A stretch of DNA of 64,000 nt from assembly GCA_903834925.1 (NCBI GenBank), contig CAILLA010000136.1, positions 1 to 64,000 on the forward strand, written 5' to 3'. The notes beneath the pieces were generated by a model that worked only from the letters and a program-made list of their open reading frames with translations, was not told the DNA's origin and made no database searches. Positions 635-35,131 of this stretch are shown here, piece after piece. The translations under genes and the position numbers were made by a program. The DNA is from an uncultured Schlesneria sp. Its GTDB lineage: Bacteria > Planctomycetota > Planctomycetia > Planctomycetales > Planctomycetaceae. The first letter of the stretch is position 1. Every line of letters starts with the position of its first letter.

Positions 635-3600
635 TTACCTGGGTGACACGGTTGCAGGCGGTGTCATATTCGGGATCGGTTCGCCGAGCCAAAAATGTTG
701 TTTTCCAATGGCTTTTGGGTCGACAATTGTGAGTGGCCGTTTGGAGAGGACTTCCGTCATGGTTGTCCAATAGAGAAATTGTCCAGTCAGTTCGGGTTGC
801 CGGGAGTACTCACCAAACAGTTTTTCGAATCGTTGGGCTGTTGCTCTTGCCGATTGCTCTTTACGGATACCGGCCGTTTGCCCTTCGAGCAGGATCGTTG
901 CCGCCGAACCCGAAAGCCATGGCTCACCCTCGGAATCGAGTTCGAGCAACTTCGCCCAAAGCTCGTCGTTCAATTCCCAATTCATTAACGTCGCTGATGT
1001 TTTAAGATTCGGCTGATCCGTTTGCGCCGCACGCTGCAGCCGTGAAAAGGCCCGTTCACCAACCGCGCCCAGCAAGGTCCGTGACGCATACGCTTCGGCT
1101 TCATTAATTAATAATTCCCGATCTTCCAGAGCGTCGGCAACCTGCCGATACGATGGAACCACGGCTTGTGGCGGATGGACATCGAGCCATTGTAGTTCAA
1201 CAATTTCGACCCCCAGTTCGTAATTTGCGATCCGATCCCGCAACTTTGCCAGCGACTGACGTTCCAGATCAGCTCGCTGTTCGGTAAGCAGATTATCGAG
1301 TGAGGCGGTCGCAGCGACCTCACGAAGTACGCTTTCGGCAGCGGCACGCAAGACGTCGTCCGGCTTGCGACTTCCCGCGAATACGAATTGCTTCAGGTTG
1401 CTGATCCGATACTGAACCTCGGCCATCAACTCCACTGGCACTTCGTCACCCGTTAGCATCAGAGATTCATCGCCTTGGGACGCGTGCCCACGATCGTCAT
1501 GTGAGCTCGTCCATTCGATCGTTGGAAAATTTGTTAACGGGGCTGGGGATCCCAAGCGTGCAGCGAGTGGGTTGAGTCGAGTCTTCGCGGCACCATCTCG
1601 CGAAGCCGCCCCTGTCCTGCCGGCGGCGTTCCTCTTCGTCGTTTGATTGTCGGCTTCAACCGCTTCACGATATCCCACGGAAACACTGCGAAGTCGCTCG
1701 GTTTTTTCCTTCGTGATGCGTTCGAGTGGCCAAGGCCAACGCCAATACAACCCTGCGGTTAATTCGGTTTCAACGCGACCGAAACGAGTGACAATTGCGT
1801 GTTCGTCTTCAGTTAAGAGCGCGATCCCAGACAGAAACCAAAGGGAAACGATTGTGGCACCGATCAGCTTTGAACCGAGCTTCCAATGCTCAATACACCA
1901 GAAAACCCATTGAGATGGCGATGCATTGGTGACCAGCCAGTCGGCTCCGGCAAGCAATTGATTCAGGCCACGAGACGTGATCGACGACGAATGCGATTCG
2001 AACCAAAGTAGCCTCATCGCATTCGCCATCACGGCTAATGAGGCGACTTCATGAAACATCGCACCGCCAATCGGATCGAGCCAGCGTAACGAGCAGGCGA
2101 GCACTCCTAATCCATTCAGGCCGAATGCGAATAAGAGAATGCTCTGCCAGATATTCTGCACCAGTGCTCGCGAAAGTCGTACCAGACCAGGAAGCGGTCG
2201 CAGGGGATCACCCAGAAGGATGATGTCGCCTGCGGCCGCAGCCATGTCACCGCCTGCTGTGCCGAGGGAGATTCCAACATCGGCGGCAGCGAGTGCCGGT
2301 GCATCGTTGATCCCGTCGCCGACCATCGCCAGGGACCGGCCTGATCGACGCACCTCTTCGATCCAGTGTGCCTTATCGGCAGGAAGCTGTTCGGTCGCAA
2401 CGTGTTCAAAGTTTCCAAGAGTTTTCACGACCGCGTCGGCAGGTTGAGGGCGGTCTCCGGTTAAGAGAACGAACCTGGTCACACCGATGTCACGCAGTTC
2501 GTTAAGGACTTGCTGTGATTCGGGCCGAATCGTTTCGAGAACGCCAATGACACCAATGACGACCCCATCGACAGCAACGACGAAAGGAGATTCCCCTGCC
2601 GCTTCACGTTCTTTCAGCAGCAACGCAGCATTTTGAGAAAAAGAGATATCGCCTCGATCCAAGGCTCGGCGATTTCCGACGACAATTGTTGCAAGTTGCA
2701 GGTCGAAATCGTTCGGCACCTGGGCGGAAGCAACCTTGTTTGTTCTCTGAAGTTCGTCGGTCGATATTCTCGCGATCACGCCGGCACCGGAAAGAGCCTC
2801 AAAATCCCTTGGGGAAGGAACTACCAGACCACGCTGTTCCGCTGCATTAACGAGAATTCGTGCGATCGGATGTTCGCTATTTCGTTCGGCGATGGCGGCA
2901 ATTCTGAGGACGGCGCTCTCGGACAGTCCCGTCGTTGGGATGATCGTACCCAGGGTGAGTGCTCCCTGCGTGAGTGTCCCAGTCTTGTCGAAGGCAAACG
3001 TATCGACATTTGCCAAACGCTCCAGGGCAGCGGACCCTTTGACGACGACACCTCGTCGAGCAAGCCAGGCAAGCGAGGCCATCACAGCACAGGGAGTTGC
3101 CAGCACGATTGGACAGGGACACGCAACAACAAGGACGGCCAGCGCGGGTAGATAACCACTCTGCCACGATCCGGTTGCAATGCGCCAGCCGATTAAAGTT
3201 GCCAACGCAGCGGTAAGGACAGCTGGCAAGAACCATTTCGCCATTCGATCGGCTGTTCGTTCCAGATCTCCTTTTCGTGAGGCCGCAGTTCCAACAAGTT
3301 GCGCCACGCGTGAAAGGGCGGTACTCGGACCGATCTTCTCGGCAACAACGGTTAATGCACCGAACTGATTTAATGTCCCCGCGAGAACTCGATCACCTCG
3401 CTGTTTGTCGACCGGAAAACTTTCTCCCGTAAAGGGACTCTGGTCGACAACAGATTTCCCCGACACGATTTGCCCGTCGACGGGAATCCGTTCACCGGGT
3501 CGGACGGTGACAATATCGCCAACAGACAATTCGTTGAGAGCGACATCGAGTTCGCGACCATCCTGATGTCGATGTGCGATCTCGGGCCATAACGCAAAAG

Positions 3601-4030
3601 TTTGACGTACGGCCCAACGGGCTCGGTCGATTGTATAACCTTCGATGCTTTCGCCGATCAACGAGATCAGTACGACGAGACCGGCGGTCTGATGTTCACC
3701 GAGGACGATGGCCGCCAGACAAGCGAGTGTTAGAGCCAGATCTGCTCCGATCCGTCCTGAAAGCAACCCATCCAGCGTGTGATAGAGAATTCTCGATCCG
3801 CCGACGATTGCCGCGAGAAGAGCTAATCGATAGCCAAAGTATGTCGCCTTTGAGAGAGCATTACCCGTGATTCCTGACGATAGCGACCAATCGGCAACGA
3901 GCAACAAACCAACAATCAGGGTCAAGAGATACAGCGGCGCTGATTGGTAGTGAAAGTTCTGTCGCGACGCGACAGAACACGTCGAATCACCCCGAAGCAT
4001 TTCCGATGTTGACTCAGGAATGTAATGCAT
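635..4030 (-). CDS. Heavy-metal (P1B-type) P-type ATPase fused to a C-terminal SPFH/band-7 (HflK-like) domain
   Basis: 1131 aa; [38 protein letters not shown] in the N-terminal ~690 aa; then TM + [37 protein letters not shown] start and a C-terminal coiled region. Confidence 0.9.
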
Positions 4031-4036
4031 GATCGA

Positions 4037-4984
4037 TTACTTTTCCCCCCGCGAAGGAGGGAACGTGAGATCAACAGGGTGTTCGGCATCGAGCACGATT
4101 TTCATTTTTGCGACGTTGAAAACTTCCTGCAAAGTCTCGAGGGTGAGTCGGTTCATCACAAGCTGTTTCGAGTCGGCGTAAGTTCGGTTTCCGCTTTCTG
4201 CGTCACGTTGGATTTGAGCGGTCAACAAACGGAAACGATCCGCCGAACCGGCTGCAGCGGAGGTTCTCGCATGTCGAATTTGTTCGGCGTCGTCTGTGAC
4301 TTTTCGAGCATCGGCTTGTGATTCGGCAAGCTTCTGCTCAGCGTAACCTCGTGCTTCATGAATCGAACGAGCCATATCCGCACGAGCATTTGAGACGTCG
4401 AGAAATTCGGCCTTCGCACGAGCAGGCGGTTCCGCTCGATCAACCGTCACCTGTTCAACGTCGCAGCCAAGTCGCAATTTCGCCGCCTGTTGGCGAACGT
4501 CTCGTAGGAGTCGGTTGTTAAGTTCTGCCAAACCCTGGGTATGGACAAAATCGACGCCGCACCGCGATACGATGTCGGTGGTTGTCGTTTCGACCAGCAG
4601 TTGCAAACGCTGAATCGGCGACATTGAGCCATACAGCCAATCAACCACATGCTCTTCGGAGACTCGATACTGTACGTTGATCTTAAGCAGCAGCAGATTT
4701 TTATCTCCCGTGAGAAATGTTGAAGGCCGCGCAGCTGTCATTGGGATCAGGAAATTCGGATCGGCTTCAATCTCACCCAGCGACAGGGTGCGGACTTCGT
4801 TGAAGTTCACTCGATCAACACGTGCCAGCGGCCAGGGAAGCTCGATATGCAATCCACTTGAACGAACCGGTGTTATGACACGGCCAAATCGACGGACAAC
4901 CCCCTTTTCGTTTGCTGGGACCGTATAGAGACCGGTCGAAAGATAGATGGCAAAAGCGATCGCGAACACGATCAAGGACTTCAC
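4037..4984 (-). CDS. SPFH domain membrane protein, HflC-like
   Basis: 315 aa; N-terminal TM, VPANEKGVVRRFGRVITPVRSSGLHIELPWPLARV, Ala/Glu-rich C-terminus. Confidence 0.85.
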   Translation of the reverse strand: MKSLIVFAIAFAIYLSTGLYTVPANEKGVVRRFGRVITPVRSSGLHIELPWPLARVDRVNFNEVRTLSLGEIEADPNFLIPMTAARPSTFLTGDKNLLLLKINVQYRVSEEHVVDWLYGSMSPIQRLQLLVETTTTDIVSRCGVDFVHTQGLAELNNRLLRDVRQQAAKLRLGCDVEQVTVDRAEPPARAKAEFLDVSNARADMARSIHEARGYAEQKLAESQADARKVTDDAEQIRHARTSAAAGSADRFRLLTAQIQRDAESGNRTYADSKQLVMNRLTLETLQEVFNVAKMKIVLDAEHPVDLTFPPSRGEK

Positions 4985-6105
4985 GGTAGAACTCCCGGAG
5001 CTCGATCTGCTTTTTCGGGCATATTCGCGGGATTGTCAGCGTTTGGGATCGTCGTTTCTGGTGTCGATTTTGTTGAGGTGGGGACGCCACGAATCAGCAA
5101 ATTCAGAAGACTGTTTGACCCAGACAAAATGAGTGTCGTCCGTTCATTTAGAATCTGTTTGTAGGATTCGAGTGTTTGCAAAAGAGCGGCGAATTCTGGG
5201 TCTTTTGCATGTGCTTCGTTCAGGATGTGAATTGCAGCCGCTTCGCCTTCACCTCGAATTCGTTCAGCATCGGCATTGGCTTTTGCCAAAAGTTCACCCG
5301 ATTGACGGTCGGCACGACTGCGAATCATCCGATTTTCGGCAAGGCCAGCGCTGCGGTATCGTTCCGCAATTTTTTGCCGTTCGCTCCGCATCCGTTCGAA
5401 CACAGCCTGCATGTTTCCTGCTGGAAGATTGAGTCTTCGAATGCGAACGTCGACGATTTCAACCCCCAATCGGTCACTCAGCGATTTTGTTTCATCGGGG
5501 CGTTTTTCGAATTCGTTACGAATTTCCGCCGAGACTTTCTCCAAAGGACTTGGGCCTTCGGCTGGGCCTGATTCGGAATGCTCGGCATTCAGAAGCTCAG
5601 AAAGCTCGCTACGACCGATCTGTTCCGTCAAAATCGACTGTAATCGACTGGCAAGTCGCGATTCAGCGACGTCAACGCTTCCAAATCCTTGAAAGAACTT
5701 TACGACCGGACAATCGAGCAGTTCAGTCGAACGCCCGTCGGCAATCTTCCAGCAGAGAAAGGCCTCGACGGTGACATTTTTCCGGTCTCTAGTAAACGCT
5801 TCACGTCCTGGCGGCGACAGAAGCTGCAAACGGCGATCGAATCGACGAACGGCTTCGACGGGCCAGGGGAGCTTGAAATGAAGCCCTCGCTGTGACGGCT
5901 GGTCATAGACAGCTGTTATCCGACCGAATCGCTCAACGACAGCAAACTCCGTTTCGTCGACGAATACGAGAACTGTGGGAAGTGCGGCAACGACCGCAAT
6001 TCCGACGAGCCATCGCCACAGCCAATACCGGTCGATGCCGATCGCGGATTTTTTAGTCGATGATTCCAAATCCAAAGCCATGCCAATTCCGAGAACCAAA
6101 GTCAA
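4981..6105 (-). CDS. SPFH domain membrane protein, HflK-like
   Basis: 374 aa; TM, FVDETEFAVVERFGRI...RGLHFKLPWPVEAV; ATGA overlap with the downstream SPFH gene. Confidence 0.85.
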   Translation of the reverse strand: MTLVLGIGMALDLESSTKKSAIGIDRYWLWRWLVGIAVVAALPTVLVFVDETEFAVVERFGRITAVYDQPSQRGLHFKLPWPVEAVRRFDRRLQLLSPPGREAFTRDRKNVTVEAFLCWKIADGRSTELLDCPVVKFFQGFGSVDVAESRLASRLQSILTEQIGRSELSELLNAEHSESGPAEGPSPLEKVSAEIRNEFEKRPDETKSLSDRLGVEIVDVRIRRLNLPAGNMQAVFERMRSERQKIAERYRSAGLAENRMIRSRADRQSGELLAKANADAERIRGEGEAAAIHILNEAHAKDPEFAALLQTLESYKQILNERTTLILSGSNSLLNLLIRGVPTSTKSTPETTIPNADNPANMPEKADRAPGVLP

Positions 6106-6354
6106 ACGGTTTCACCAAGCAACGGCGAAAAGAAGGATCTTGTTAACCTAGGAAGATCGCGTCGATTCTAGAGGTGTTTAAGAGGGACTCGCAATGAAGA
6201 AGTCTCAGTTCATTTGCTTGATTCGTTTCTGGCACCGGAAAAGTCGTTGTTCCACGCTCAATTCCGATTTTGATGATTGAACTCGGGAGCGAAGCCGGTA
6301 TTCACCGAAAAACGGCATCAAGCCCAAAATCAATTCCTTCGATTTTGCGGAAAA

Positions 6355-23542: not shown

Positions 23543-25108
23543 TCAGGGGCTTGTTTGGGATTCTACGAGGCTTTTCAGTAGATTGCCCCAGTCTTCACCT
23601 GTCATGGCATTGGGAATCAGTTCTGAGCGAAAATCTCTTGGGCTGTCGATGATTGTTGGCGCTGTGGGGAATCTGAGCCTATCCATGGCGGTCTTGAGCT
23701 TTTCCGTGAACGGCTTCGAGTCGCGATGAGACGTTGCAATTCCCAATAAGACGCTGGCGGTCTTGTCCCATGAAGAAACCAGCTTTTCCTGTTGCTTCAG
23801 GACAATTTCGCGAAGCAAACGATCTGTGTCCATATCATTGGACTGAAAGCAATTAAGCCACGTTTGCAGTTTGTCACGGACAATTCGTGATTGTACAGAT
23901 GTCTGTGCGGCGCTGGGAATTTCGGTTTGTTTAAGCATTTGATCTAGCTGCTGAAAGGCCGTGAAAAACTCGTTCGATTCTGACGAATTCACTTCGTCGG
24001 CCAGAATCTGAATCAGTTCGAGACTCCAACTTCCCCAAGGCATCGCCAGGCGTCCCGTTTGCTTGCCGGTCAGATCCAGGCCAGGAAATCCTCGCATCTG
24101 TCTCCACGACGGCTCAGTTAAATCGTGATGGCAGGCAAAACAATTGTATTCGGATAATTCCGGCCAGGATGACTGTTGAGTTGTATCGCCGATTACGGTG
24201 CAGGAGTTGGCTCGGTCTTCGAGTTGTTCCAGAGCGGCAATCGCGGTGACAAGCTGGCCAATGAACCATTCGCGAGATCGAAGACTGTTGGTTGCCGTAC
24301 GACTTGGCTTCCAATGTTTTGGAAGGCGGGAAAGATACCAGGTGTATTCAAACTTTAATGCGGGATGACCAGCGGCGATCAGATCGTGATTGACATCAGC
24401 CTCGCCGCCACCAACGTGGCAGGCGGCGCATCGTTTGACTCGGCCTGACACGTCACCGGCCGCGAAGAAATGAAGTCGATGCTTTTCCTCGGTGGAAGTT
24501 TTCTTATCCCAACCATCTTGGACATGAAGATTCAGCCATTCCCGCGAGTCACCGTGACAAGATTCGCAGCTGACACCTTCCGAAAAATAATTCGCTTGAT
24601 CCGCCAGTGGGGCTGCTCCGGACAAATGCTGATTTGTATCGTGACAACCCTGACAGTTCTTCCAGTGCTTTTTCTCCGCTTCGCTGGCCGCTTTGCCTGG
24701 CGGTAATTTGGTTCCCAGACCCAGCCGTTCAAATATTTCCTGAGACTTTTTTCCCAGTAGGGTTTGGCTCGCCTTGGCGTGCGGGTCGTCCATCCACACA
24801 TAACACTCGTCACGGCGAATGGCTTGAACGTTTGGATCGCAAGTCAATGAACCATGACAGTTCGACGTGGAACACGACTGCGTTCGAGTCAGAGTCGTAG
24901 CCCCGGAATCTGACTCGAATTGAAATGCAGTTGCTCGCGAATCATCAGGCCGTTTTGGTTCCGGCCGATTGTTATAAACGGTCTTGATACCAAGTCCTGC
25001 GAAAATGGCGAGCCAGCCGAAAGCGACGATGACTAGCCATCGATTCGTCGTAAGGCCGTTCATCCCAATTGGCCGCCAGGAATTGCCCGACATTGACGAA
25101 GGCTTCAT
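23543..25108 (-). CDS. Penta-haem c-type cytochrome (cytochrome c554-like)
   Basis: CSTSNCHG (CX4CH) + CQGCH, CESCH, CAACH, CFACH; NHDLIAAGHPALKFEY. Confidence 0.88.
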   Translation of the reverse strand: MKPSSMSGNSWRPIGMNGLTTNRWLVIVAFGWLAIFAGLGIKTVYNNRPEPKRPDDSRATAFQFESDSGATTLTRTQSCSTSNCHGSLTCDPNVQAIRRDECYVWMDDPHAKASQTLLGKKSQEIFERLGLGTKLPPGKAASEAEKKHWKNCQGCHDTNQHLSGAAPLADQANYFSEGVSCESCHGDSREWLNLHVQDGWDKKTSTEEKHRLHFFAAGDVSGRVKRCAACHVGGGEADVNHDLIAAGHPALKFEYTWYLSRLPKHWKPSRTATNSLRSREWFIGQLVTAIAALEQLEDRANSCTVIGDTTQQSSWPELSEYNCFACHHDLTEPSWRQMRGFPGLDLTGKQTGRLAMPWGSWSLELIQILADEVNSSESNEFFTAFQQLDQMLKQTEIPSAAQTSVQSRIVRDKLQTWLNCFQSNDMDTDRLLREIVLKQQEKLVSSWDKTASVLLGIATSHRDSKPFTEKLKTAMDRLRFPTAPTIIDSPRDFRSELIPNAMTGEDWGNLLKSLVESQTSP

Positions 25109-26757
25109 CTGCTCCCTTTAATCGAGAGCGTCTTTTTCAACTCTGCCGCACCAATTTGACCATTGTTCAACATTTCGTTGATGCCCGGACGAAAATCCGC
25201 TTTGGCATGTGTATGGTGATAATCATGACAGTCAACGCATTTGTCGCTGACGGAACCACGACCGCCGTTCGATGACCCATGACCATGACATTGCTGACAA
25301 AGTTCAATGCGTGGCATTAAAACGTCTTGAGCAGAAATACTGGCGTAGATCGACGTCGATGATTTTTGTTGTTCTTTGAGAACGGGATAGTAATCTTCGC
25401 GCTCAGACGGTTCATGAAGTCCACCATTCCGCGTGTGGCATTTCCGGCAGTCAACAGAAAAATGACGGTCATGCCGGAACTGGCTATGAGCCATCCATTG
25501 GGAGGGGATCTTCGTCGGGATTACACTCCAGCCGACGCTCCCTTTGTTATCTTGTCTGGTAAAGTGGCACTTGGTACACGACTTTTCGAAAGGACTCTTT
25601 ACATGATTTCTTGGCTCGACATTGTCGAACCCGGTCGCCTCAAACAACTGCGATTTCACCTTCTGGAATTCCGCACGAATGTCGTCCTGAAACGCGGCAT
25701 CAATTGGCTGCAATTTTGGGTCGAGATCGCGTGATGGCGGATCGATTGGGGGCTTCGTTGGGCCTCCGATTTCATCGGATTGCACCGGTCGATCCCCCTT
25801 GTTCTTCAGGTTCTTCACCAGGTTGTCGAGAACGATCCCTTGAACGATTTCGGGATCGGCATGCGGAAGCTCGCCGGTCGACGGGAATCCTAATTTGTGA
25901 CACTGGTAACAATGTTGCTGATAGTTAATCGGACGAAAATAGGCTCCGTTGGGTTCGGCCTGATGGCAATCCACACAATCGAGTGACGTTGTCTTTCCGT
26001 TGCCAGCTGGAAGATTGGGGTCAAGATGGCGACGGTGGTTGAAAAGAATTTTCGAGGCATCAACGGGATGATCGATTTTACCATCGTTTGGCCAATTGAC
26101 CGGACTGTCCGCGCGATCTCGGTTCAATGCTTCTGACTTGCGCCAAATTCCCAATTGAGTATGCTGAGAGAAATCTGAAAACTTCAGTTCGAAGCGGTGT
26201 TGGCCGTTCGGTTCTTTGGATTTTAGCAAGTGATCGACTTGCAAATGGCAATTGGAACATTGTGCATCAGAGACCTGCGTCAATTCTGAATGACCTCGAT
26301 GCTCTTCATGACAGCCAGCACATTTCAAAGGACTGATCAGCGTTTCTAATTGAGCTTCCAGGATCGCATGCCGATTTCCCCAGGCGAATTCTTCGTCTTT
26401 GGTCTTGGGCAAAAAGTGGTCATTATCGTTCTTATTGGATTCGCGGTGACACGACTGACATTTTTTATCCGAGGTCGATGTCCACGAGTTATTGAATGTG
26501 ATCATCCTCCGTAACGGTGCGCCACTTTGATCGTGACACTGACTGCAATTCTGTTCAAACGATTTATGGGCGTTTGAGACACAGCGGGATTCAAACGCAC
26601 GATGATCACCCAGCAGCCAGGGGACACACGCAAGGACTGTACCGATCAGAAACAGAGCGGACAGCCGAAACCGCATGAGGCGCAAAGGGTCCCGATGCCT
26701 GAGAACATCGAGATCATAACGGCTTGCAATTGTTTTCAGTCGACGTCGATCAGCCAC
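25105..26757 (-). CDS. Deca-haem c-type cytochrome, membrane anchored
   Basis: Ten CXXCH: CSQCH, CQSCH, CAGCH, CSNCH, CVDCH, CYQCH, CTKCH, CRKCH, CQQCH, CVDCH; N-terminal TM; 4-nt overlap with the next gene. Confidence 0.9.
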   Translation of the reverse strand: MADRRRLKTIASRYDLDVLRHRDPLRLMRFRLSALFLIGTVLACVPWLLGDHRAFESRCVSNAHKSFEQNCSQCHDQSGAPLRRMITFNNSWTSTSDKKCQSCHRESNKNDNDHFLPKTKDEEFAWGNRHAILEAQLETLISPLKCAGCHEEHRGHSELTQVSDAQCSNCHLQVDHLLKSKEPNGQHRFELKFSDFSQHTQLGIWRKSEALNRDRADSPVNWPNDGKIDHPVDASKILFNHRRHLDPNLPAGNGKTTSLDCVDCHQAEPNGAYFRPINYQQHCYQCHKLGFPSTGELPHADPEIVQGIVLDNLVKNLKNKGDRPVQSDEIGGPTKPPIDPPSRDLDPKLQPIDAAFQDDIRAEFQKVKSQLFEATGFDNVEPRNHVKSPFEKSCTKCHFTRQDNKGSVGWSVIPTKIPSQWMAHSQFRHDRHFSVDCRKCHTRNGGLHEPSEREDYYPVLKEQQKSSTSIYASISAQDVLMPRIELCQQCHGHGSSNGGRGSVSDKCVDCHDYHHTHAKADFRPGINEMLNNGQIGAAELKKTLSIKGSR

Positions 26758-26898
26758 TGTATCCGTTTCTGAAAATCGTTTTTCGAATCAGGTCAATCTA
26801 CTACAAGGCATGTCATCTGTATTCGCTAAGTCATTATCGATCTCGCCGAAACCCGCATAAACGCAAGGGAACCATCTCCAGCAGTTATCGAATGGTTC

Positions 26899-27891
26899 CT
26901 AATAGTAAATCGCCGTCATGATGTGCAACAATCCCAAGACCAGTAGGGTCAGGCATAAAGGAACGTGAAGATGTAACCACCCATGCAGCCACCCGTGAAT
27001 TCGCGACTGAAACAAAAGTTGTCGTCGTTCATCGCAAGCAGACTCCATCTCATCAATGACTGGCCGTAGGTCTTCGGTCACGCTGTCTCGTAATCTCGCG
27101 AATCTCGCGGTGGCCAGTGTGGGGTTTGCCAGATCGTGTGATCGATTCGCATCTGAACTTAAAAAGCTGTTAAGCTGATCCCAGTAAAATGTGGAAAGTT
27201 CAAGCTTCGGCGAAAATGACTCATGTTGTGACGTTTTGACCGGCATGCCTTGTTTCGACGGATTGATTCCAGAGGTTGTCACCGCGAGTTCGGAGGCCCC
27301 TTGACTGCGGGACAACGAAGAAAATGGCTCGAGAAAAGCACTTTCGCATACCTTTTGTACGGCAAGTTCTGTCGAACGCCGTAGCCTTTCACAGGCAACT
27401 TCCAGCTGAGGCGCGATCGCCTGAGCGGGAATGTTTGAGGCCATGACTCGTGGCAGAATTTGTTGAACGGCAAGACCATATATTCCGCTCAAAATCACGG
27501 CCGCAAACGTCAGCATCAGGCAAGACTCAAGTGCCCCACCCAAACGGAACCCGCCGTGGCAAAGAATCAGGGGAACACTCAAAAGACTGATCCAGATATG
27601 ACCGCGAAGCCATGTCTGAGCACTTCCAACCTGCCACTTTGGAATTTTCTTTCGCCAAGCCAAAAGGCCGGCGTAAACCATACAACCAGTACCAGCGACA
27701 CCAAAGAGCATTCCTTGCCACGATCCGCCACTTGCACCATTCGGTTCGGTCCGAGCGTAGATCCAGTAGAGGATGAACGCCACCAGTGTTAAACAGGTGG
27801 TCGTCAAAGCCCAGGGGACATGCGAACGATCAACAATCACAACAGACCTCGAAAATCGGGGGTCTAAAACGAGTTTTTTCCTAGCATACAA
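26899..27891 (-). CDS. Integral membrane protein, putative b-type cytochrome
   Basis: 330 aa, about 5-6 TM; His in or near TMs (RGHIW, LCHGG, HGWLHLHVPL, LLHIM); in cytochrome operon. Confidence 0.5.
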   Translation of the reverse strand: MYARKKLVLDPRFSRSVVIVDRSHVPWALTTTCLTLVAFILYWIYARTEPNGASGGSWQGMLFGVAGTGCMVYAGLLAWRKKIPKWQVGSAQTWLRGHIWISLLSVPLILCHGGFRLGGALESCLMLTFAAVILSGIYGLAVQQILPRVMASNIPAQAIAPQLEVACERLRRSTELAVQKVCESAFLEPFSSLSRSQGASELAVTTSGINPSKQGMPVKTSQHESFSPKLELSTFYWDQLNSFLSSDANRSHDLANPTLATARFARLRDSVTEDLRPVIDEMESACDERRQLLFQSRIHGWLHGWLHLHVPLCLTLLVLGLLHIMTAIYY

Positions 27892-28032
27892 GCGCGGGTA
27901 ACGCGAAGATAGATTTGACAGCCTACCGTGAAAATTTTTGTCGACGTCCTTCAGTTCCCGGACTGAAAACGAGTTCAGATTTCAAATGGAAACGGCGATT
28001 TGCATCCCGTAGGATAATCGGCATACGCCCGC

Positions 28033-31000
28033 ATGACACGACAGCCGGTGCGGGTTAAAGACCACCAAGACAGTCAACTTTTGAGCAAACGCGATATGGA
28101 TGGCGGACAGCAGCAACCTGCTTTGAAGCAACAAACCGTTAAAACGCAGATTCATCTTGATTCTCGATCAGGCGACAAATCAGTCGATTCCGATCTACTG
28201 GCTCAGTTTGACCTGTTCCGAAGAATGAAAAAGCCCATTTCTGCCGAGAAACTGCCTGGTGGCATTGTCCTGCGCCGGTACAACAAAGGGGAAATCGTCT
28301 TTCAACAGGGGCAGGCTGGCGGAACGGCATTTTATATTCCCACCGCCGAAGACTTGAATCGAATCAAGGCCTTAGATGCAGATCTGCAATCATCATCGAT
28401 TGCGTCAGATGCCCCCGACCGAAATCGGCAGATCCTGACGGCGGTGATTGTTCCATCAACCGCGCGAACACGGACCAAAGGTTTCTTCGAACGATTGTTT
28501 TCGCCATCCACCAAGACTTCGTCTCGACAAATCAGTTCAATTCCGAGTGACGGACCGACTGACATCAATTACGAGACCCGAGAAGCACCGTTGATGGAAG
28601 GTGATGTTTTCGGTGAAATGAGTTGCATTTCGTTCACTCCTCGTTCGGCAACCGTCATCACGCGAGTCGACTGTTTGCTCCTGGAGTTTAATCGTAATGT
28701 CTTCGAGACACTCCGCGATGACCCGAACCATCAAGCGGCGGTGGACAAAGAATATCGTCGACGTACGCTCGATACGCATCTTCGCCAATTCCAGATTTTT
28801 AGTGGCCTGACGGAATCTCAGATTCAAACACTTAAGGACAACGTCACACTGGAAATCGTCCCGCCGGGGAAAGTGATTTGCGAAGAGGGAGAACCATGGT
28901 CAGATTCAAAACCGCTCGACGTTTTCATCGTACGAAACGGTGTTGTTCAAGTGATTGCCAACACGAATTTGTCTCTGGGAATGGATGACATTCGCGATTG
29001 GACGACCTTTTGTCGTCAATTGAATGAGAGCCAGGCCGAAGCGCCGAAACCAATTGCAAAACCGGCCGCATCGCCAATTGCACGTGGTGCAGTTTCCGCT
29101 CCAACAACTGACACGAAGCCTGTTTCACTTGCAGAGCGCGTGGCAGCCCCACAGGTTCTAACCGATAAGGGATCAGCGCACGCGACTTCAGCGCCGGCCG
29201 ATGTCAGTTCCACGCCCAAAAAGCTCTCGCCACTTGAGCTAATGCGAGCCAAACAAGCGGCCGCTGCCGCTCCTCAGGATTCCTCGACACCTGCCGCCGG
29301 CTCGCCAGCAACGAAAGAAAAACCAGCGGACGACGCGGTCGCCCCGAAAAAGCTATCGCCGATCGAGCAAATGCGAGCCAAGCAGGCAGCGACAGCGCAG
29401 GAATCTTCCGTGGTTGCTGGCGAACAGCCAGCCGTACCCCTTGTCGAGAAAAAACCAGCCGACGAAGTGGTCGCCCCGAAAAAGTTGTCGCCGATCGAGC
29501 AAATGCGAGCCAAGCAGGCGGCCGCTGCGGCAGCGAACGCACAGGAATCTTCCGTCGTTGCTGGCAAGAAGCTAGCCGTACCCTCTGTTGAGGAAAGACC
29601 AGCGGAAGAGGCGGTTGCCCCGAAAAAGTTGTCGCCGATCGAGCAAATGCGAGCCAAGCAGGCGGCGGCTGCGGCAGCGAAAGCACTGGAACCTTCCGTC
29701 GTTGCTGGCGAACAGCCAGCAACACCCTCTGTCGAGGAAAAACCAGCCGACGAAGTGGTCGCCCCGAAAAAGCTGTCGCCAATCGAACAAATGCGAGCCA
29801 AGCAGGCAGCCGCCGCAGCGGCGAAAGCACAGGAATCTTCCGTAGTTGCAAGCGACCAGCCAGCTGCTAATCCTGCGGAAGAAAAACCTGCGGACGCCGT
29901 CGCAGCGCCCAAAAAACTATCGCCGCTTGAGCAAATGAGGGCCAAACAGGCCGTTGCCGGCTCTGGTCCAGCTGCTACTAAACAGACTTCTTCCGCCCCG
30001 ACCGGCGAAATCACCGCTGGCCCAAAGGGAAATCCAAATGCCACAACCGCCAACCTGGAAAAGCCGCAAACCCCATCGGGGAAGGCCAGTATCGAAGTCG
30101 ATGTAAACCTGCCATTGCTGCGAGCCAAGCGTCTTGACCAACCGGGGTCACTCGTTTTTCTGGTCAAATCGTGGCTGAACGATCATGTCCTTGAAGCGGC
30201 TCAACGGATTGCCAATCTGACGTTAACCGGCGAGCCTTTGATTCACGCTCAAGAATTGGTCCTTTCCGCCCTCAATCAACTGCTCGGTCGCCCTGATTTC
30301 TTGAACGATAAGCGGTTAATTTCGGACATTTATGTTAAGCCTGAGCTCCTGCGAAAAGTGGCTACTTTCCCGAAAGGGATCAAGGGGATTGAGAAGAGTT
30401 GGTCGGAGCTGGAATTGAGAACCGCCGGACGCGCGGCATTCAGCGAAATTTTCCCCGATCTGATTCGCAAACCCATCGAATCGTCCGGGCCGCCGCGCGT
30501 TCTCGCTTACCTGTCGCGCGGCGAATGTTTTGGTGAAATTGCGGTGGTCACTCGCAGTCCGCGTAATGCGAGTTGCATTGCCTATAACCATCCTTCGACA
30601 GAAGAAGCTCGCGATTTTGGCAATGTTGAACTCGTGCGAATTCGTGGTGCGGCCTTTCGCAAGCTCATGGATGAATCACCGGCGCTGAAGCAGCAGGTCG
30701 AATCTCTCGCACAAAAACGCGTCAAGCAGACGCAATCTTCGGGTGCGAAACATACAGAATCCGACCTGATCGCCTCGGCCGAGTTTCAACAGATGGGACT
30801 CTTTCAGGGAAGTCGGTTACTCGTCATCGACCTGGATTCGTGTACGCGTTGTGGCGATTGCGTTGAGGCGTGCGTGAAAACCCACGATGACGGTTATTCG
30901 CGATTGTTTCTGGATGGACCACGCTATGACCGATTCCTCGTGCCGTCGGCTTGCCGAAATTGCCTCAACCCCGTCTGTATGCTCGGTTGTCCTGTGGGAT

Positions 31001-31764
31001 CGATCGGACGAGGCAATAATGGCCAGATCGAAATCTATGACTGGTGTATCGGTTGTTCCAAGTGCGCCGATCAGTGCCCGTACGACTCGATTCAAATGCA
31101 CGACTTGGGCCTGATTCCAGAAGAATCCCTCGGGTGGCTTTGTGCCAGTCGTCGATCATTACCCGATGACTGGTATCGGGCAAGGCGGCTGAGCGGTGGC
31201 TGGATGCAAGGAACGTCACCTTTTCTCTGGCAAGGAGATTTTCTCAGGAATTGGACCGAAAGCGTTGCTGAGGCACAATCCATTACGATCTGTTTTCGTC
31301 ACGAGTTTCGTTTGCCGAAGAAATCGAAGAACAGCCACTATCGGCTTTCCATTAACGATGATCGGCGCAAGAGTACTTTGACGAAGATCCGGATCAAAAA
31401 ATCCACTGTCGTCGGAGTCTGGTTGAACGGGAAAAAGCTGGATTGGTCAGGAAATTCTCTTGATCTGTCCACGGAAGATTTTCTCACCACCGAAAACGTC
31501 CTTGCGGTGGAAGTGTCATTGGATTCGCCAATCCCCTACGGTCAAATTGTCCTGTCGGCCTGCCTCGACGCTGTCCCGGAAGCCAGCCTGCAAACACGCG
31601 CGATTCTTGGAGACCAGGTGCTGCCTGAAATGGACCTGGTGACGAGTCGTGCGGCGGTTTGTGACCTGTGCAGTCATCTCCCTAGCCAGCAACCAGCCTG
31701 CGTATCATCGTGCCCGCACGACGCAGCCATCCGTATCAATCCCTTGATCAACTTTCCGACTTAG
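28033..31764 (+). CDS. Cyclic-nucleotide-binding-domain / 4Fe-4S ferredoxin fusion protein with internal tandem repeat array
   Basis: 1243 aa; GDVFGEMSCISFTPRSATV and GECFGEIAVVTRSPRNASC cNBD-like cassettes; CTRCGDCVEAC, CRNCLNPVCMLGC, CIGCSKCADQC, CDLCSHLPSQQPACVSSC. Confidence 0.85.
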   Translation: MTRQPVRVKDHQDSQLLSKRDMDGGQQQPALKQQTVKTQIHLDSRSGDKSVDSDLLAQFDLFRRMKKPISAEKLPGGIVLRRYNKGEIVFQQGQAGGTAFYIPTAEDLNRIKALDADLQSSSIASDAPDRNRQILTAVIVPSTARTRTKGFFERLFSPSTKTSSRQISSIPSDGPTDINYETREAPLMEGDVFGEMSCISFTPRSATVITRVDCLLLEFNRNVFETLRDDPNHQAAVDKEYRRRTLDTHLRQFQIFSGLTESQIQTLKDNVTLEIVPPGKVICEEGEPWSDSKPLDVFIVRNGVVQVIANTNLSLGMDDIRDWTTFCRQLNESQAEAPKPIAKPAASPIARGAVSAPTTDTKPVSLAERVAAPQVLTDKGSAHATSAPADVSSTPKKLSPLELMRAKQAAAAAPQDSSTPAAGSPATKEKPADDAVAPKKLSPIEQMRAKQAATAQESSVVAGEQPAVPLVEKKPADEVVAPKKLSPIEQMRAKQAAAAAANAQESSVVAGKKLAVPSVEERPAEEAVAPKKLSPIEQMRAKQAAAAAAKALEPSVVAGEQPATPSVEEKPADEVVAPKKLSPIEQMRAKQAAAAAAKAQESSVVASDQPAANPAEEKPADAVAAPKKLSPLEQMRAKQAVAGSGPAATKQTSSAPTGEITAGPKGNPNATTANLEKPQTPSGKASIEVDVNLPLLRAKRLDQPGSLVFLVKSWLNDHVLEAAQRIANLTLTGEPLIHAQELVLSALNQLLGRPDFLNDKRLISDIYVKPELLRKVATFPKGIKGIEKSWSELELRTAGRAAFSEIFPDLIRKPIESSGPPRVLAYLSRGECFGEIAVVTRSPRNASCIAYNHPSTEEARDFGNVELVRIRGAAFRKLMDESPALKQQVESLAQKRVKQTQSSGAKHTESDLIASAEFQQMGLFQGSRLLVIDLDSCTRCGDCVEACVKTHDDGYSRLFLDGPRYDRFLVPSACRNCLNPVCMLGCPVGSIGRGNNGQIEIYDWCIGCSKCADQCPYDSIQMHDLGLIPEESLGWLCASRRSLPDDWYRARRLSGGWMQGTSPFLWQGDFLRNWTESVAEAQSITICFRHEFRLPKKSKNSHYRLSINDDRRKSTLTKIRIKKSTVVGVWLNGKKLDWSGNSLDLSTEDFLTTENVLAVEVSLDSPIPYGQIVLSACLDAVPEASLQTRAILGDQVLPEMDLVTSRAAVCDLCSHLPSQQPACVSSCPHDAAIRINPLINFPT
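29215..29991 (+). repeat. In-frame tandem repeat array, 6 copies headed by PKKLSP(L/I)E(L/Q)MRAKQA
   Basis: Unit starts at 29215, 29344, 29476, 29620, 29764, 29908; spacing 129/132/144/144/144 nt, all multiples of 3. Confidence 0.92.
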
Positions 31765-31790
31765 ACCTTAGACCCGTTGAACCACCAAAA

Positions 31791-33389
31791 ATGATTGACT
31801 TCCGAACAGCCTTGAATTCGATCAACCCCAACAAAGAATCGGGGATGCAGGCGAATTCGTGCTGTCGGATTTGTTCCGCATTGACAACCGGCCTCTTCGC
31901 ACTGCTGATCGCAGGCCCAAATGATGCCCAAGGCCAAGTCCCTCCAGCACCGACGCCGATTTCAAGGATGATCGAAAGTACGGATCACATACCCGCGCCG
32001 ATGATGACCTCCGTCGATTCGGCCCAGGGTTTCTTTGCAAAAAACTTTCTGGGGAGTCAATCCTGTACGGCGTCAAGTTGCCATGGAAATCCTCGACGGG
32101 AATCAGTAACTGGATCAGCGGCACATTTTTTCTTCGATGCTGATCGTCACCAGCGAGGCGGAGCCGTTCTTCGTGAAAGACGTTCGAAAGAGATCGCCGA
32201 ACGATTGAACCTCCCTCAGCCCGCATGGGAAACAAAAGAGTGCCTTGTTTGCCACGCACCGGCTGCGATTCAATCCGAGAATCGCCAGGATTTTCAAGCG
32301 AAACTCGCAGAAGGGGTTGGCTGCGAAAGCTGTCATGGACCGGCTCGAAACTGGCTGACTCTTCATCATACGCTCGAATGGAAGTCCCCCGAGATCTGGT
32401 CCAGCGAAATCAAAGAAGAAGTGGGCTTCCGCGAAACCAAGAACCTGCTGAACCGCGTTAATGATTGCGCCGATTGTCATGTAGGTAACGCAAATCAGTC
32501 AGTCAACCATGATTTGATCGCGGCCGGACATCCGCGGCTTGTGTTTGAATACGCTGCCTATCAGTCGATGATGCCGGCTCATTGGCGACGTTCTGAAGAT
32601 CGACAGAGACAGGCGTCGGCTCGTAATTCGTCATGGAGTCAACCAACTTCTGAAGCGTGGGACTGGCTACTCGGACAACTCGTCAACGCCGAACATGAGC
32701 TGAGCATCGTGTCTGCTTCGGGCAGCAATCCAAATGCCGTCTGGCCAGAACTGGCTCAATACGATTGTTTTGGTTGTCACCACGACTTGAGGACAAAAAG
32801 CTGGCAACAATCGCGGGCCGCATGGGACTTGAAACCCGGTGAGTTTCAATGGGGAACTTGGAATCTGGGTTTATTGCCTGAACTGAAAAAATCCTTGAAC
32901 GACGTTGTCGACGATCGATTGCTCGAAAACGTATCGGTGCTTCAAAAGAGGATGAGGTCTCCAACCGTCGAAAGAGCATCCGTTTCCGGTACCGTTCTCG
33001 AATTGCAGCAACAACTGCGTCAGGCGGCATTATCGCTCCAGAAGAAAGGGCTACGCACCGAGGACCTTAGGGTGATTCAGAGATCGTTGCTCAATGATTC
33101 CGCACGATTCACCAACCAAGGCTGGGATCGGTCGACACAGCTCTACCTTGCGCTTGTCGCGATCGATATTGGATTGTCCGAAAATCCCTACATGACAGTT
33201 CGCATGAATCCAGCTCGTGAAGTGACTTACCGTCAGTTGCGAGAGCAGTTGTCTTTCAGAGACTCGACGAAATTGATTCCGCCCCTAGAACATCGCGAAA
33301 GCCCATTTCGTTTGCAGGATCACTGGTCGACAATTCGACAGAACTTTGACGATCTGACGATCCAACTCAGTACGGAGCCGCAGAGATGA
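31791..33389 (+). CDS. Penta-haem c-type cytochrome (cytochrome c554-like)
   Basis: ATG 31791; CTASSCHG (CX4CH) + CLVCH, CESCH, CADCH, CFGCH; NHDLIAAGHPRLVFEY. Confidence 0.87.
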   Translation: MIDFRTALNSINPNKESGMQANSCCRICSALTTGLFALLIAGPNDAQGQVPPAPTPISRMIESTDHIPAPMMTSVDSAQGFFAKNFLGSQSCTASSCHGNPRRESVTGSAAHFFFDADRHQRGGAVLRERRSKEIAERLNLPQPAWETKECLVCHAPAAIQSENRQDFQAKLAEGVGCESCHGPARNWLTLHHTLEWKSPEIWSSEIKEEVGFRETKNLLNRVNDCADCHVGNANQSVNHDLIAAGHPRLVFEYAAYQSMMPAHWRRSEDRQRQASARNSSWSQPTSEAWDWLLGQLVNAEHELSIVSASGSNPNAVWPELAQYDCFGCHHDLRTKSWQQSRAAWDLKPGEFQWGTWNLGLLPELKKSLNDVVDDRLLENVSVLQKRMRSPTVERASVSGTVLELQQQLRQAALSLQKKGLRTEDLRVIQRSLLNDSARFTNQGWDRSTQLYLALVAIDIGLSENPYMTVRMNPAREVTYRQLREQLSFRDSTKLIPPLEHRESPFRLQDHWSTIRQNFDDLTIQLSTEPQR

Positions 33390-35131
33390 GTATCGGATCG
33401 CGTCAGACACTTCTGTGTTTTTTAAGCCTGCTGTTGACGTGCATTCTCAACCAGTTCGCGTATTGTGACGAGGATGTTTCTCGTGACGTACGAGATCGTT
33501 TCGGAACACCCGACAACGGGTCTCGCGTAGTCGTTGGGCTGAAAACCAGTAAATGTTCGATCTGTCACGGCAAAGCGATTTCAGCAGCGAGCGAAGAATT
33601 ACCATCGGATGTGCAGGGACGCGGAAATGATGGCTGGATCCTGGGTGACGAATTACTCACATGGGTCCGCGACGATTTTCACTATCAGGCATTCAGCGTA
33701 CTTTTGAATGACCAATCCCGGCAAATGGCGAAAAGACTCGGCATCGTCGATGCAAATGGAGAATCCGCAGTCCATCAGGACCGACGATGTCTGTCCTGCC
33801 ATGCGTCAATTCCAGTGACTCAGATGTCGTTAGATGGAGACCGCGTCACCCATGATACGTCAACAGATTCTCGCTACACGATTGGCGTGTCGTGCGAAGC
33901 GTGCCACGGTCCTTCCGGTCGGAAAGGGGACGGACCTTCGGGCTGGGAAGAAGCACATGTTGTCGATACGCGCTGGCGAACGATGAATCCAAAGACCAAG
34001 TTCGAAGACTTTGGATATTGGGATATCCATTCTCCCAGAACTCAGACTCGTATTTGTCTTTCGTGCCACATGGGTAATGTCGAGCAAAAAAAGGTGATTA
34101 CCCACGAGATGTACGCGGCTGGCCATCCGCCACTTCCCAGTTTTGAGCTTTCTCAATTCATCAATCAAATGCCAAGGCACTGGCGTCGGTTGGAAGAGAA
34201 ACCGAAATCCTTGCGTGAGAATGTCATCGAAAAACTGACCCAACTCCGACAAGATGGTGACTTTTTCGTGATTGGCGACACCGAACTTGCTGCCACCAAA
34301 TTGACAATGATTTCGGCACTGGTGACGCTGGAAGAATCCATGACATTGACCGCGAATCTGATCGCCGATTCGGCCACGTCGCAGCAGTGGCCGGAACTTG
34401 CCAACTATTCTTGCTTCGCATGTCACCATGAACTCAGCCGTGACGGATGGCGGAAGAAAACAAGATTGAGCAAATTCCCAGGGCGGCCGACGCTTCACGA
34501 GTGGCCATTTGCACTCTCACGCGTGGTTGCTACGGAAATCATCAACGACCAAACCGAACCTGCATTTCAGGAAAACTTGAATGCAATGATTACGGCGATG
34601 ACGGCCCGACCGTATGGTGACTCAACGCAGTTAAAGTTGACAGCCAGGGCTCTTGCCAAAGCGATCGAAGCCGAAACAAAAATCTTGGGCTCCATGACAA
34701 TTGATCGAGAACGAGCAAATCGCTTTTTGACGCAAATCGCGTTAGCGGCGTCGACGGAGTCAACAGATTACGATTCCGCTCGACAGTTCGTCTGGGCTTA
34801 CGAGCGGACCTTCGATGCATTAAACAAGCCAGAGATTTCCACTGACTTCGCAGTGACACAAGAACAAACGAAAAGTCCACAAAAATGGATTGGTGGTCAT
34901 CCGATCCTTGATGAGTTTGAACAAGACCTTGTGCTTTGGCTGCGAGCGAATCGCACGAAAGAACCTTCGGTCAAGTTGGGTTCAAATAAAGAAGCTTTCC
35001 AGCATTCGCAGCGTTCGACCAACGTTTCTGAATCGCTGAAAAAGATTGCTGAATACAATCCACAAAAAACCAACGAACGCTTTCAGCGGCTGCTGAAATC
35101 TCATGTCAATCCGACCGAACAAATTCGCTGA
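33386..35131 (+). CDS. Penta-haem c-type cytochrome
   Basis: CSICH, CLSCH, CEACH, CLSCH, CFACH; YAAGHPPLPSFELSQFINQMPRHWRR; ATGA overlap with previous gene. Confidence 0.88.
   Translation: MSIGSRQTLLCFLSLLLTCILNQFAYCDEDVSRDVRDRFGTPDNGSRVVVGLKTSKCSICHGKAISAASEELPSDVQGRGNDGWILGDELLTWVRDDFHYQAFSVLLNDQSRQMAKRLGIVDANGESAVHQDRRCLSCHASIPVTQMSLDGDRVTHDTSTDSRYTIGVSCEACHGPSGRKGDGPSGWEEAHVVDTRWRTMNPKTKFEDFGYWDIHSPRTQTRICLSCHMGNVEQKKVITHEMYAAGHPPLPSFELSQFINQMPRHWRRLEEKPKSLRENVIEKLTQLRQDGDFFVIGDTELAATKLTMISALVTLEESMTLTANLIADSATSQQWPELANYSCFACHHELSRDGWRKKTRLSKFPGRPTLHEWPFALSRVVATEIINDQTEPAFQENLNAMITAMTARPYGDSTQLKLTARALAKAIEAETKILGSMTIDRERANRFLTQIALAASTESTDYDSARQFVWAYERTFDALNKPEISTDFAVTQEQTKSPQKWIGGHPILDEFEQDLVLWLRANRTKEPSVKLGSNKEAFQHSQRSTNVSESLKKIAEYNPQKTNERFQRLLKSHVNPTEQIR

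Follow-up and report, generated by a model that had tools for sequence, protein, structure and literature searches.

The window analysed here is a 64,000-nucleotide stretch of DNA from an uncultured Schlesneria sp. (contig C136 of a 9.0 Mb assembly in 307 contigs), and it contains a divergent six-gene locus at 23543-35131 that encodes 25 haem-binding motifs and four [4Fe-4S] clusters. The locus is read, with slightly better than even confidence, as a conduit that carries electrons from NAD(P)H to the periplasm under the control of a cyclic nucleotide monophosphate (cNMP), probably independently of quinone, and that in some of its carriers probably extends to the outside of the cell. The composition and co-conservation of the module, as judged from sequence, are held with higher confidence than the mechanism as a whole. 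The four kinds of protein are called FES (a fusion of cyclic-nucleotide-binding domains, cNBDs, with Fe-S clusters), MEM (a membrane protein), DECA (a deca-haem cytochrome) and PENTA (penta-haem cytochromes). The closest named matches to the Fe-S domain come from metagenome-assembled genomes (MAGs) of Schlesneria sp., at 92-98% identity.

The original prediction had described six genes as a single electron-transfer module, the Fe-S component of which carries cNBD folds. The six open reading frames (ORFs) lie where it had placed them, and when the proposed co-occurrence check across Planctomycetota was run, the families did co-occur, so that the module claim stands. FES is present in 63 of 296 planctomycete genomes, and MEM lies within 10 kb of it in 56 of these 63; all 45 genomes with a strong MEM match (E < 1e-20) are FES-positive. 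Of the 61 genomes in the host's own family, 29 have a MEM relative. In the loci, the genes of which were called under the guidance of hidden Markov models, the usual run is FES-MEM-DECA-PENTA(-PENTA), and the divergent layout of the window recurs in L040, L081, L085 and L087. Among the 42 named loci with long flanks, MEM was found in 32, DECA in 31 and PENTA in 27. The full named set of 79 loci includes records labelled Acidobacteria, Deltaproteobacteria (Myxococcota), Wallbacteria and Riflebacteria, and cultured carriers are Singulisphaera sp. GP187 (L090) and planctomycete Pan216 (L115). On the evidence of gene content, the six genes form a widespread module that recurs across phyla beyond chance.

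MEM (26899..27840, minus strand) had been called a putative b-type membrane protein, and the alignment of 38 relatives bears this out: four histidines, at residues 98, 112, 309 and 323, are invariant and form two H-x13-H pairs. The predicted topology consists of five hydrophobic helices with a basic N-terminus and a basic loop 2-3, which places the long loop 4-5 on the predicted cytoplasmic side. The AlphaFold2 model (predicted local distance difference test, pLDDT, 88.5; predicted template modelling score, pTM, 0.78) shows five helices in the membrane, and two of these continue into a helical cytoplasmic part. MEM itself (P0003) has no Pfam match, and a PDB sequence search with the MEM profile returned nothing relevant. 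Weak, subthreshold Pfam matches occur among the 38 relatives to DUF4405 (10 of 38), Ferric_reduct (PF01794; 7 of 38, best E 1.4e-4) and Ni_hydr_CYTB (6 of 38), all of which are two-haem membrane cytochromes. Because of the invariant histidines and the weak matches to two-haem families, MEM is considered a probable bis-haem b wire, with H98/H112 and H309/H323 as predicted haem sites. An NrfD-type assignment was rejected, as no NrfD match was obtained for P0003 and 37 relatives and the four invariant histidines lie in membrane helices. In L209 (1032-3500 and 1072-2034), a MEM-like gene was seen with a downstream reading frame that contains 17 CXXCH motifs.

In NOX and ferric reductase domains, two helices with histidines spaced H-x13-H ligate a pair of bis-His haems, NAD(P)H is used on the cytoplasmic side and the acceptor is outside; the same spacing is also found in bc1-type cytochrome b. 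MEM resembles the NOX and ferric reductase domains in its two H-x13-H pairs of histidines in helices. However, it has no flavin domain, since Pfam finds no fused FAD/NAD(P)H dehydrogenase domain in P0003 and such a fusion occurs only in distant homologues, in a different order and with a ferredoxin. The module moreover adds a [4Fe-4S] relay and a periplasmic deca-haem acceptor, and no PDB fold match links the two. MEM is therefore not filed in the NOX family.

FES (28033..31764, plus strand; 1243 aa) is the cytoplasmic component, with no signal peptide visible in its sequence. As the original prediction had proposed, it is a cNBD/4Fe-4S fusion: Pfam places cNMP_binding (PF00027, E 8.5e-20) on two stretches together with several Fer4 families, and the four clusters are located at residues 937, 974, 1005 and 1210, the fourth being CX2CX9CX3C at residues 1210-1227. 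The fold of the Fe-S part resembles the four-[4Fe-4S] ferredoxin subunits DmsB, NrfC and ArrB, and the best PDB match is the ArrB-type 6cz7 (E 2e-8). In contrast to these subunits, FES is fused to two cNBDs and has neither an export signal nor a molybdopterin or NrfD partner, and its matches to the DmsB/NrfC/ArrB-type families are far below the NCBIfam cut-offs. The earlier analogy with the four-cluster subunits of respiratory membrane complexes, which are quinone-linked, is probably misleading, because MEM is not NrfD-like, FES lacks an export signal and its relatives are accompanied by NAD(P)H flavoproteins. These features suggest that the donor is NAD(P)H and not quinol. Between clusters 3 and 4, an extra segment of about 175 residues (approximately 1031-1205 of P0004, window 31123-31647) has no Pfam match; by eye only, it resembles a galactose-binding-like jelly roll, and it is missing from shorter relatives such as L043. 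In L058 and L123, a tandem pair of cNBD/Fe-S genes lies in one locus.

The partners in question are three unrelated types of NAD(P)H flavoprotein that adjoin the same core in sister loci, namely NuoE-NuoF fusions (12 FES rows), FAD/NAD/2Fe-2S reductases of the FNR type (5 loci) and NDH-2 proteins with a C-terminal cNBD (5 distinct loci). Furthermore, the weaker MEM matches in other planctomycetes (G211, G226, G241 and G323; L206-L208 and L211) are single chains of 740-766 aa, in which a 2[4Fe-4S] ferredoxin and a pyridine-nucleotide/FAD domain are joined to a MEM-like membrane domain (domain E 5e-20 to 8e-13). These chains resemble transmembrane NAD(P)H dehydrogenases that are complete in themselves. 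Together, the sister-locus flavoproteins and the ferredoxin/FAD-fused homologues speak for a supply of NAD(P)H electrons to the MEM domain by way of Fe-S centres. A candidate donor enzyme in the host genome is an NDH-2 with a C-terminal cNBD, encoded on contig C206 (19184-20767); approximately 13 kb from its gene lies that of a class III cyclase (5834-6304), and both adjoin HlyD/SecA-like genes.

The two cNBDs of FES carry intact phosphate-binding cassettes at residues 193 and 833 (FGEMSCISFTPRSAT and FGEIAVVTRSPRNAS). The cassette, FGE-x...PR-x-A-T, is like that of PKA, PKG and CRP, and the difference is that FES is an electron-transfer protein, in which Pfam found neither a DNA-binding nor a kinase domain. 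Across the family, nearly all members keep the FGE...PRxA pattern in their first cNBD and most do so in their second, and by the same pattern the cassettes of the acidobacterial members L136, L137 and L139 are degenerate. Each cNBD of FES also contains an insertion, one of which is the KKLSPIEQMRAK repeat linker. Because the phosphate-binding signature is kept, the cNBDs are real candidate cNMP receptors. Genes for class III nucleotide cyclases, most of which have an FHA or GAF domain, accompany the module in at least nine loci: in L126 and L129 they stand within the gene run, and in L050, L062, L065, L083, L093, L115 and L150 they are close by. The host genome has two class III cyclases, both unlinked to the window. 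The original prediction had left the choice between ligand and redox sensing open; given the conserved cassettes and the cyclases encoded close by, the balance tips towards a cyclic-nucleotide ligand.

A clue to the contact between FES and MEM is given by the repeat KKxSP(I/L)ExxR, which occurs in the linker of FES in the close clade of the window and, in some twenty other loci, in the loop of MEM that faces the cytoplasm, and never in both proteins of one locus. In the host genome, the repeat is confined to FES, and none of 9863 other ORFs from module loci has two or more copies. The topology and this either/or distribution put FES on that side of the membrane where the loop of MEM lies, which fits a putative contact between the two proteins on the cytoplasmic face.

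The haem motifs of the four cytochromes amount to 5+10+5+5 = 25 by motif count, in agreement with the earlier tally. Two of the 25 are the CX4CH variant, one each in the ORFs at 23543-25108 and 31710-33389, which therefore have 4 CXXCH and 1 CX4CH, and the ORF at 33386-35131 has 5 CXXCH. DECA (25105..26757, minus strand; 550 aa, 10 CXXCH) contains C7/c3-type motifs by Pfam, and its N-terminus consists of a basic segment followed by a hydrophobic helix, which is a single membrane anchor with the haem domain on the predicted periplasmic side. Exactly ten haems occur in 72 of 74 full-length family members (>380 aa). The minus-strand PENTA (23543..25108; 521 aa) has an N-terminal signal anchor, is an extra paralogue of 31710-33389 and has an orthologue of 61% identity in the congener L040. 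The first plus-strand PENTA (31791..33389) has a Sec-type signal peptide and matches cytochrome c554 (1bvb, E 3.9e-5); the second (33386..35131; 581 aa), also with a signal peptide, is kept 3' of the preceding PENTA gene in most full-length relatives. All three match Pfam Cytochrome_C554 (PF13435), with E values of 2e-8, 3.6e-11 and 2.9e-8 in order of position. Motif counting gave no CXXCK, the mark of catalytic NrfA, in any of the six proteins, and no NrfD-, molybdopterin- or HAO-type domain was found, so that the earlier statement that no known terminal reductase is adjacent is confirmed. NrfD-, molybdopterin- and HAO-type readings of the locus were rejected on the same grounds. The deca-haem proteins of L133 and L135 are longer (761-803 aa), and Pfam places an FHA domain at the N-terminus of the L133 protein, on what is predicted to be its cytoplasmic side.

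The probable output of the module lies outside the window and was hence invisible to the original prediction. In many loci, the module is adjoined by a domain of about 570 aa, the barrel candidate, and a ten-haem cytochrome of about 1300 aa with a C-terminal LVIVD-repeat region; the pair stands beside the module in the close relatives L078 and L079. In the host genome, the two genes are adjacent on contig C191 (L189, 5197-7815 and 7891-12018), with identities to L079 of 80% for the barrel and 78% for the LVIVD cytochrome. The LVIVD cytochrome occurs in 33 of 296 genomes, all 33 of which are FES-positive (hypergeometric 1.3e-26, a value not corrected for relatedness), and it is within 20 kb of FES in 15 of the 33. 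The barrel model has a mean pLDDT of only 48.9, yet values of 75-87 are reached over most barrel strands past residue 620, and its fold matches the outer-membrane barrels of the AlgE type (E 5.5e-14). A PDB sequence search with the barrel-family profile gave nothing relevant, and the barrel candidate could not be told apart from controls by counting amphipathic 10-mers, a measure that gave way to structure prediction. In L080, L083 and L084, FES stands beside the barrel and LVIVD cytochrome genes, and no MEM or DECA is found inside the 20-kb locus.

The closest analogues of this output side are the porin-cytochrome (Pcc)/MtrCAB complexes, in which an outer-membrane beta-barrel gene is paired with a multihaem cytochrome gene (Shi 2014, PMC4245776), and the verrucomicrobial porin-multihaem cytochrome clusters, which likewise combine a beta-barrel gene and a multihaem cytochrome gene (He 2017, PMC5615132). 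An outer-membrane beta-barrel next to a multihaem cytochrome is what C191 presents. The difference from these systems is that the barrel is AlgE-like, its best fold match being AlgE rather than MtrB, and that the partner is a deca-haem LVIVD cytochrome of about 1300 aa. Electrons may cross the outer membrane through this pair.

Taken in sequence, the locus would encode that half of an electron-export conduit which lies in the inner membrane and the periplasm. Electrons derived from NAD(P)H would enter the four [4Fe-4S] clusters of the cytoplasmic FES; in the clade of the window, the operon has no flavoprotein, and its part may be taken by a separate enzyme, for example the host's own NDH-2 with a cNMP domain, or by a ferredoxin. 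FES would then reduce the two b haems of MEM (H98/H112 and H309/H323), which would carry electrons across the inner membrane to the membrane-anchored DECA and the three PENTA in the periplasm, and from these cytochromes electrons would probably pass to the barrel/LVIVD pair on C191 and so to an external acceptor. A cyclic nucleotide bound to the two cNBDs would most likely regulate the cytoplasmic entry step.

Several observations weigh against this reading. The operon and clade of the window (by the tree) have no local flavoprotein gene, so that sister clades supply the donor by extrapolation, and only over helices 2-4 is the alignment of MEM with the flavoprotein-fused homologues good. A Foldseek search of the MEM model against the PDB gave no match at E <= 0.001, probably because the long cytoplasmic helices dominate the comparison, and this outcome counts neither for nor against a ferric-reductase (FRD) fold. 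MEM or DECA is not adjacent to FES in 11 of the 42 well-flanked loci, and L041 and L042 keep MEM with FES and have no cytochromes nearby. On the output side, the barrel/LVIVD pair is unlinked to the module in this assembly, AlgE-type barrels have fewer strands than MtrB, so that haem passage through the barrel is to be read as conjectural, and the LVIVD cytochrome is missing from FNR-type systems and from 30 of the 63 FES genomes, which indicates that the module must have other outlets too.

Three other explanations were weighed. If the module served a local periplasmic electron supply, for ferric iron assimilation or a soluble periplasmic acceptor, the LVIVD/barrel pair would be an add-on in a subset, in keeping with its presence in about half of the FES-positive genomes (33 of 63), and the single membrane reductase domain is laid out like that of iron reductases. 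This explanation is distinctly unlikely, as 25 haems in four cytochromes far exceed the need of an assimilatory reductase and the LVIVD cytochrome was never found without the module. The direction of flow could also be inward, with extracellular or periplasmic donors such as Fe(II) or reduced humics driving the reduction of NAD(P)+ or ferredoxin, since multihaem conduits run either way and gene content does not fix the direction. On general bioenergetic grounds, however, inward electrons would run counter to the membrane potential and, with donors of this kind, would face an uphill redox step to reach NAD+, and no carbon-fixation or other sink gene stands beside the module in the window and most relatives; electron uptake is therefore regarded as very unlikely.

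A quinol-linked conduit of the CbcL or CymA kind, in which MEM would oxidise menaquinol and deliver electrons to DECA with FES as a regulatory or branching subunit, is unlikely but credible. A b-type membrane protein with a multihaem cytochrome is the anatomy of CbcL, and in L131 a single ORF of 832 aa joins the ten-haem domain and five hydrophobic segments in one polypeptide. MEM relatives match Ni_hydr_CYTB below threshold, and NDH-2, which normally reduces quinone, stands beside some loci, where it may serve a quinone-linked route, a point that also counts against the proposed conduit. On the other hand, the module almost always includes a cytoplasmic Fe-S protein with four clusters, NuoEF- or FNR-type flavoproteins are encoded in sister loci, and a MEM homologue is fused to ferredoxin and FAD/NAD domains. 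The three described inner-membrane families of extracellular electron transfer (EET), namely CymA, CbcL/MtrH/MtoC and ImcH, are all quinone-linked multihaem proteins (PMC6295460). CbcL homologues consist of a fused b domain (HydC/FdnI-like) and a multihaem domain, with about six, mostly six, transmembrane helices and three conserved histidines (Zhong & Shi 2018, PMC6295460). The module shares with CbcL/MtrH/MtoC the route from a b-type membrane part to a periplasmic multihaem cytochrome, with trans-outer-membrane partners adjacent in some genomes. It differs in its normally separate genes, five helices and four invariant histidines, in the cytoplasmic Fe-S/cNBD partner that CbcL does not have, and in the NAD(P)H flavoproteins of its sister loci where CbcL is quinone-linked. 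Membership in the CbcL/MtrH/MtoC family was rejected on this architecture; only the L131 ORF joins both domains.

The broadest form of the proposed NAD(P)H-to-periplasm conduit is that the module represents a new class of inner-membrane exit, a quinone-independent haem-b wire fed by an NAD(P)H donor through a [4Fe-4S] protein gated directly by cAMP or cGMP and feeding a new barrel/LVIVD extracellular conduit. This is put forward tentatively, as a possibility that falls short of even. In the open-access journal literature searched, no report of a cNMP-binding multihaem electron-transfer system was found, and the module is, as far as searched, widespread and previously unnamed. Electron disposal outside oxygen and nitrate respiration is poorly known in planctomycetes and in many uncultured bacteria of soil, lakes and groundwater. 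If the proposal is true, the module would be a fourth kind of EET entry point that is uncoupled from the quinone pool, and would therefore act as an overflow valve rather than a pump. A second messenger would then gate an electron-transfer line, and control respiration within seconds, at the protein level rather than by transcription.

The gene starts require some adjustment. The listed MEM ORF extends to TTG 27891, but the start is probably GTG 27840, because the MEM relatives align from there; the shared divergent gap is therefore approximately 192 bp, and not 141 bp as previously given, while the 4-bp coding overlaps at 25105-25108 and 33386-33389 are both real. FES stops at 31764 and the next plus-strand PENTA, the listed ORF of which begins at 31710, starts downstream at ATG 31791 or 31845, so that the ORF-level overlap between the two is spurious. 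Scans of regulatory signals carried no weight: the sigma-70 scan gave 3 promoter-like sites, fewer than the 7.0 in shuffles, and the terminator scan gave 23 terminator-like sites against 14.8 in shuffles, none of them decisively placed.

Three further observations concern the surroundings. Three MAG records titled Candidatus Kuenenia stuttgartiensis (L105, L109 and L134) have loci that group with other planctomycete families in the tree, and these labels are probably wrong. Elsewhere in the window, the minus strand at 635-6105 encodes a heavy-metal-type P-type ATPase (E1-E2_ATPase, Hydrolase) with a C-terminal SPFH/Band_7 fusion (635-4030), followed by two further Band_7 (HflK/HflC-like) genes at 4037-4984 and 4981-6105. 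The host genome is unusually rich in haem motifs, with 1097 matches to the CXXCH-coding DNA pattern against 417 for the reversed control pattern.

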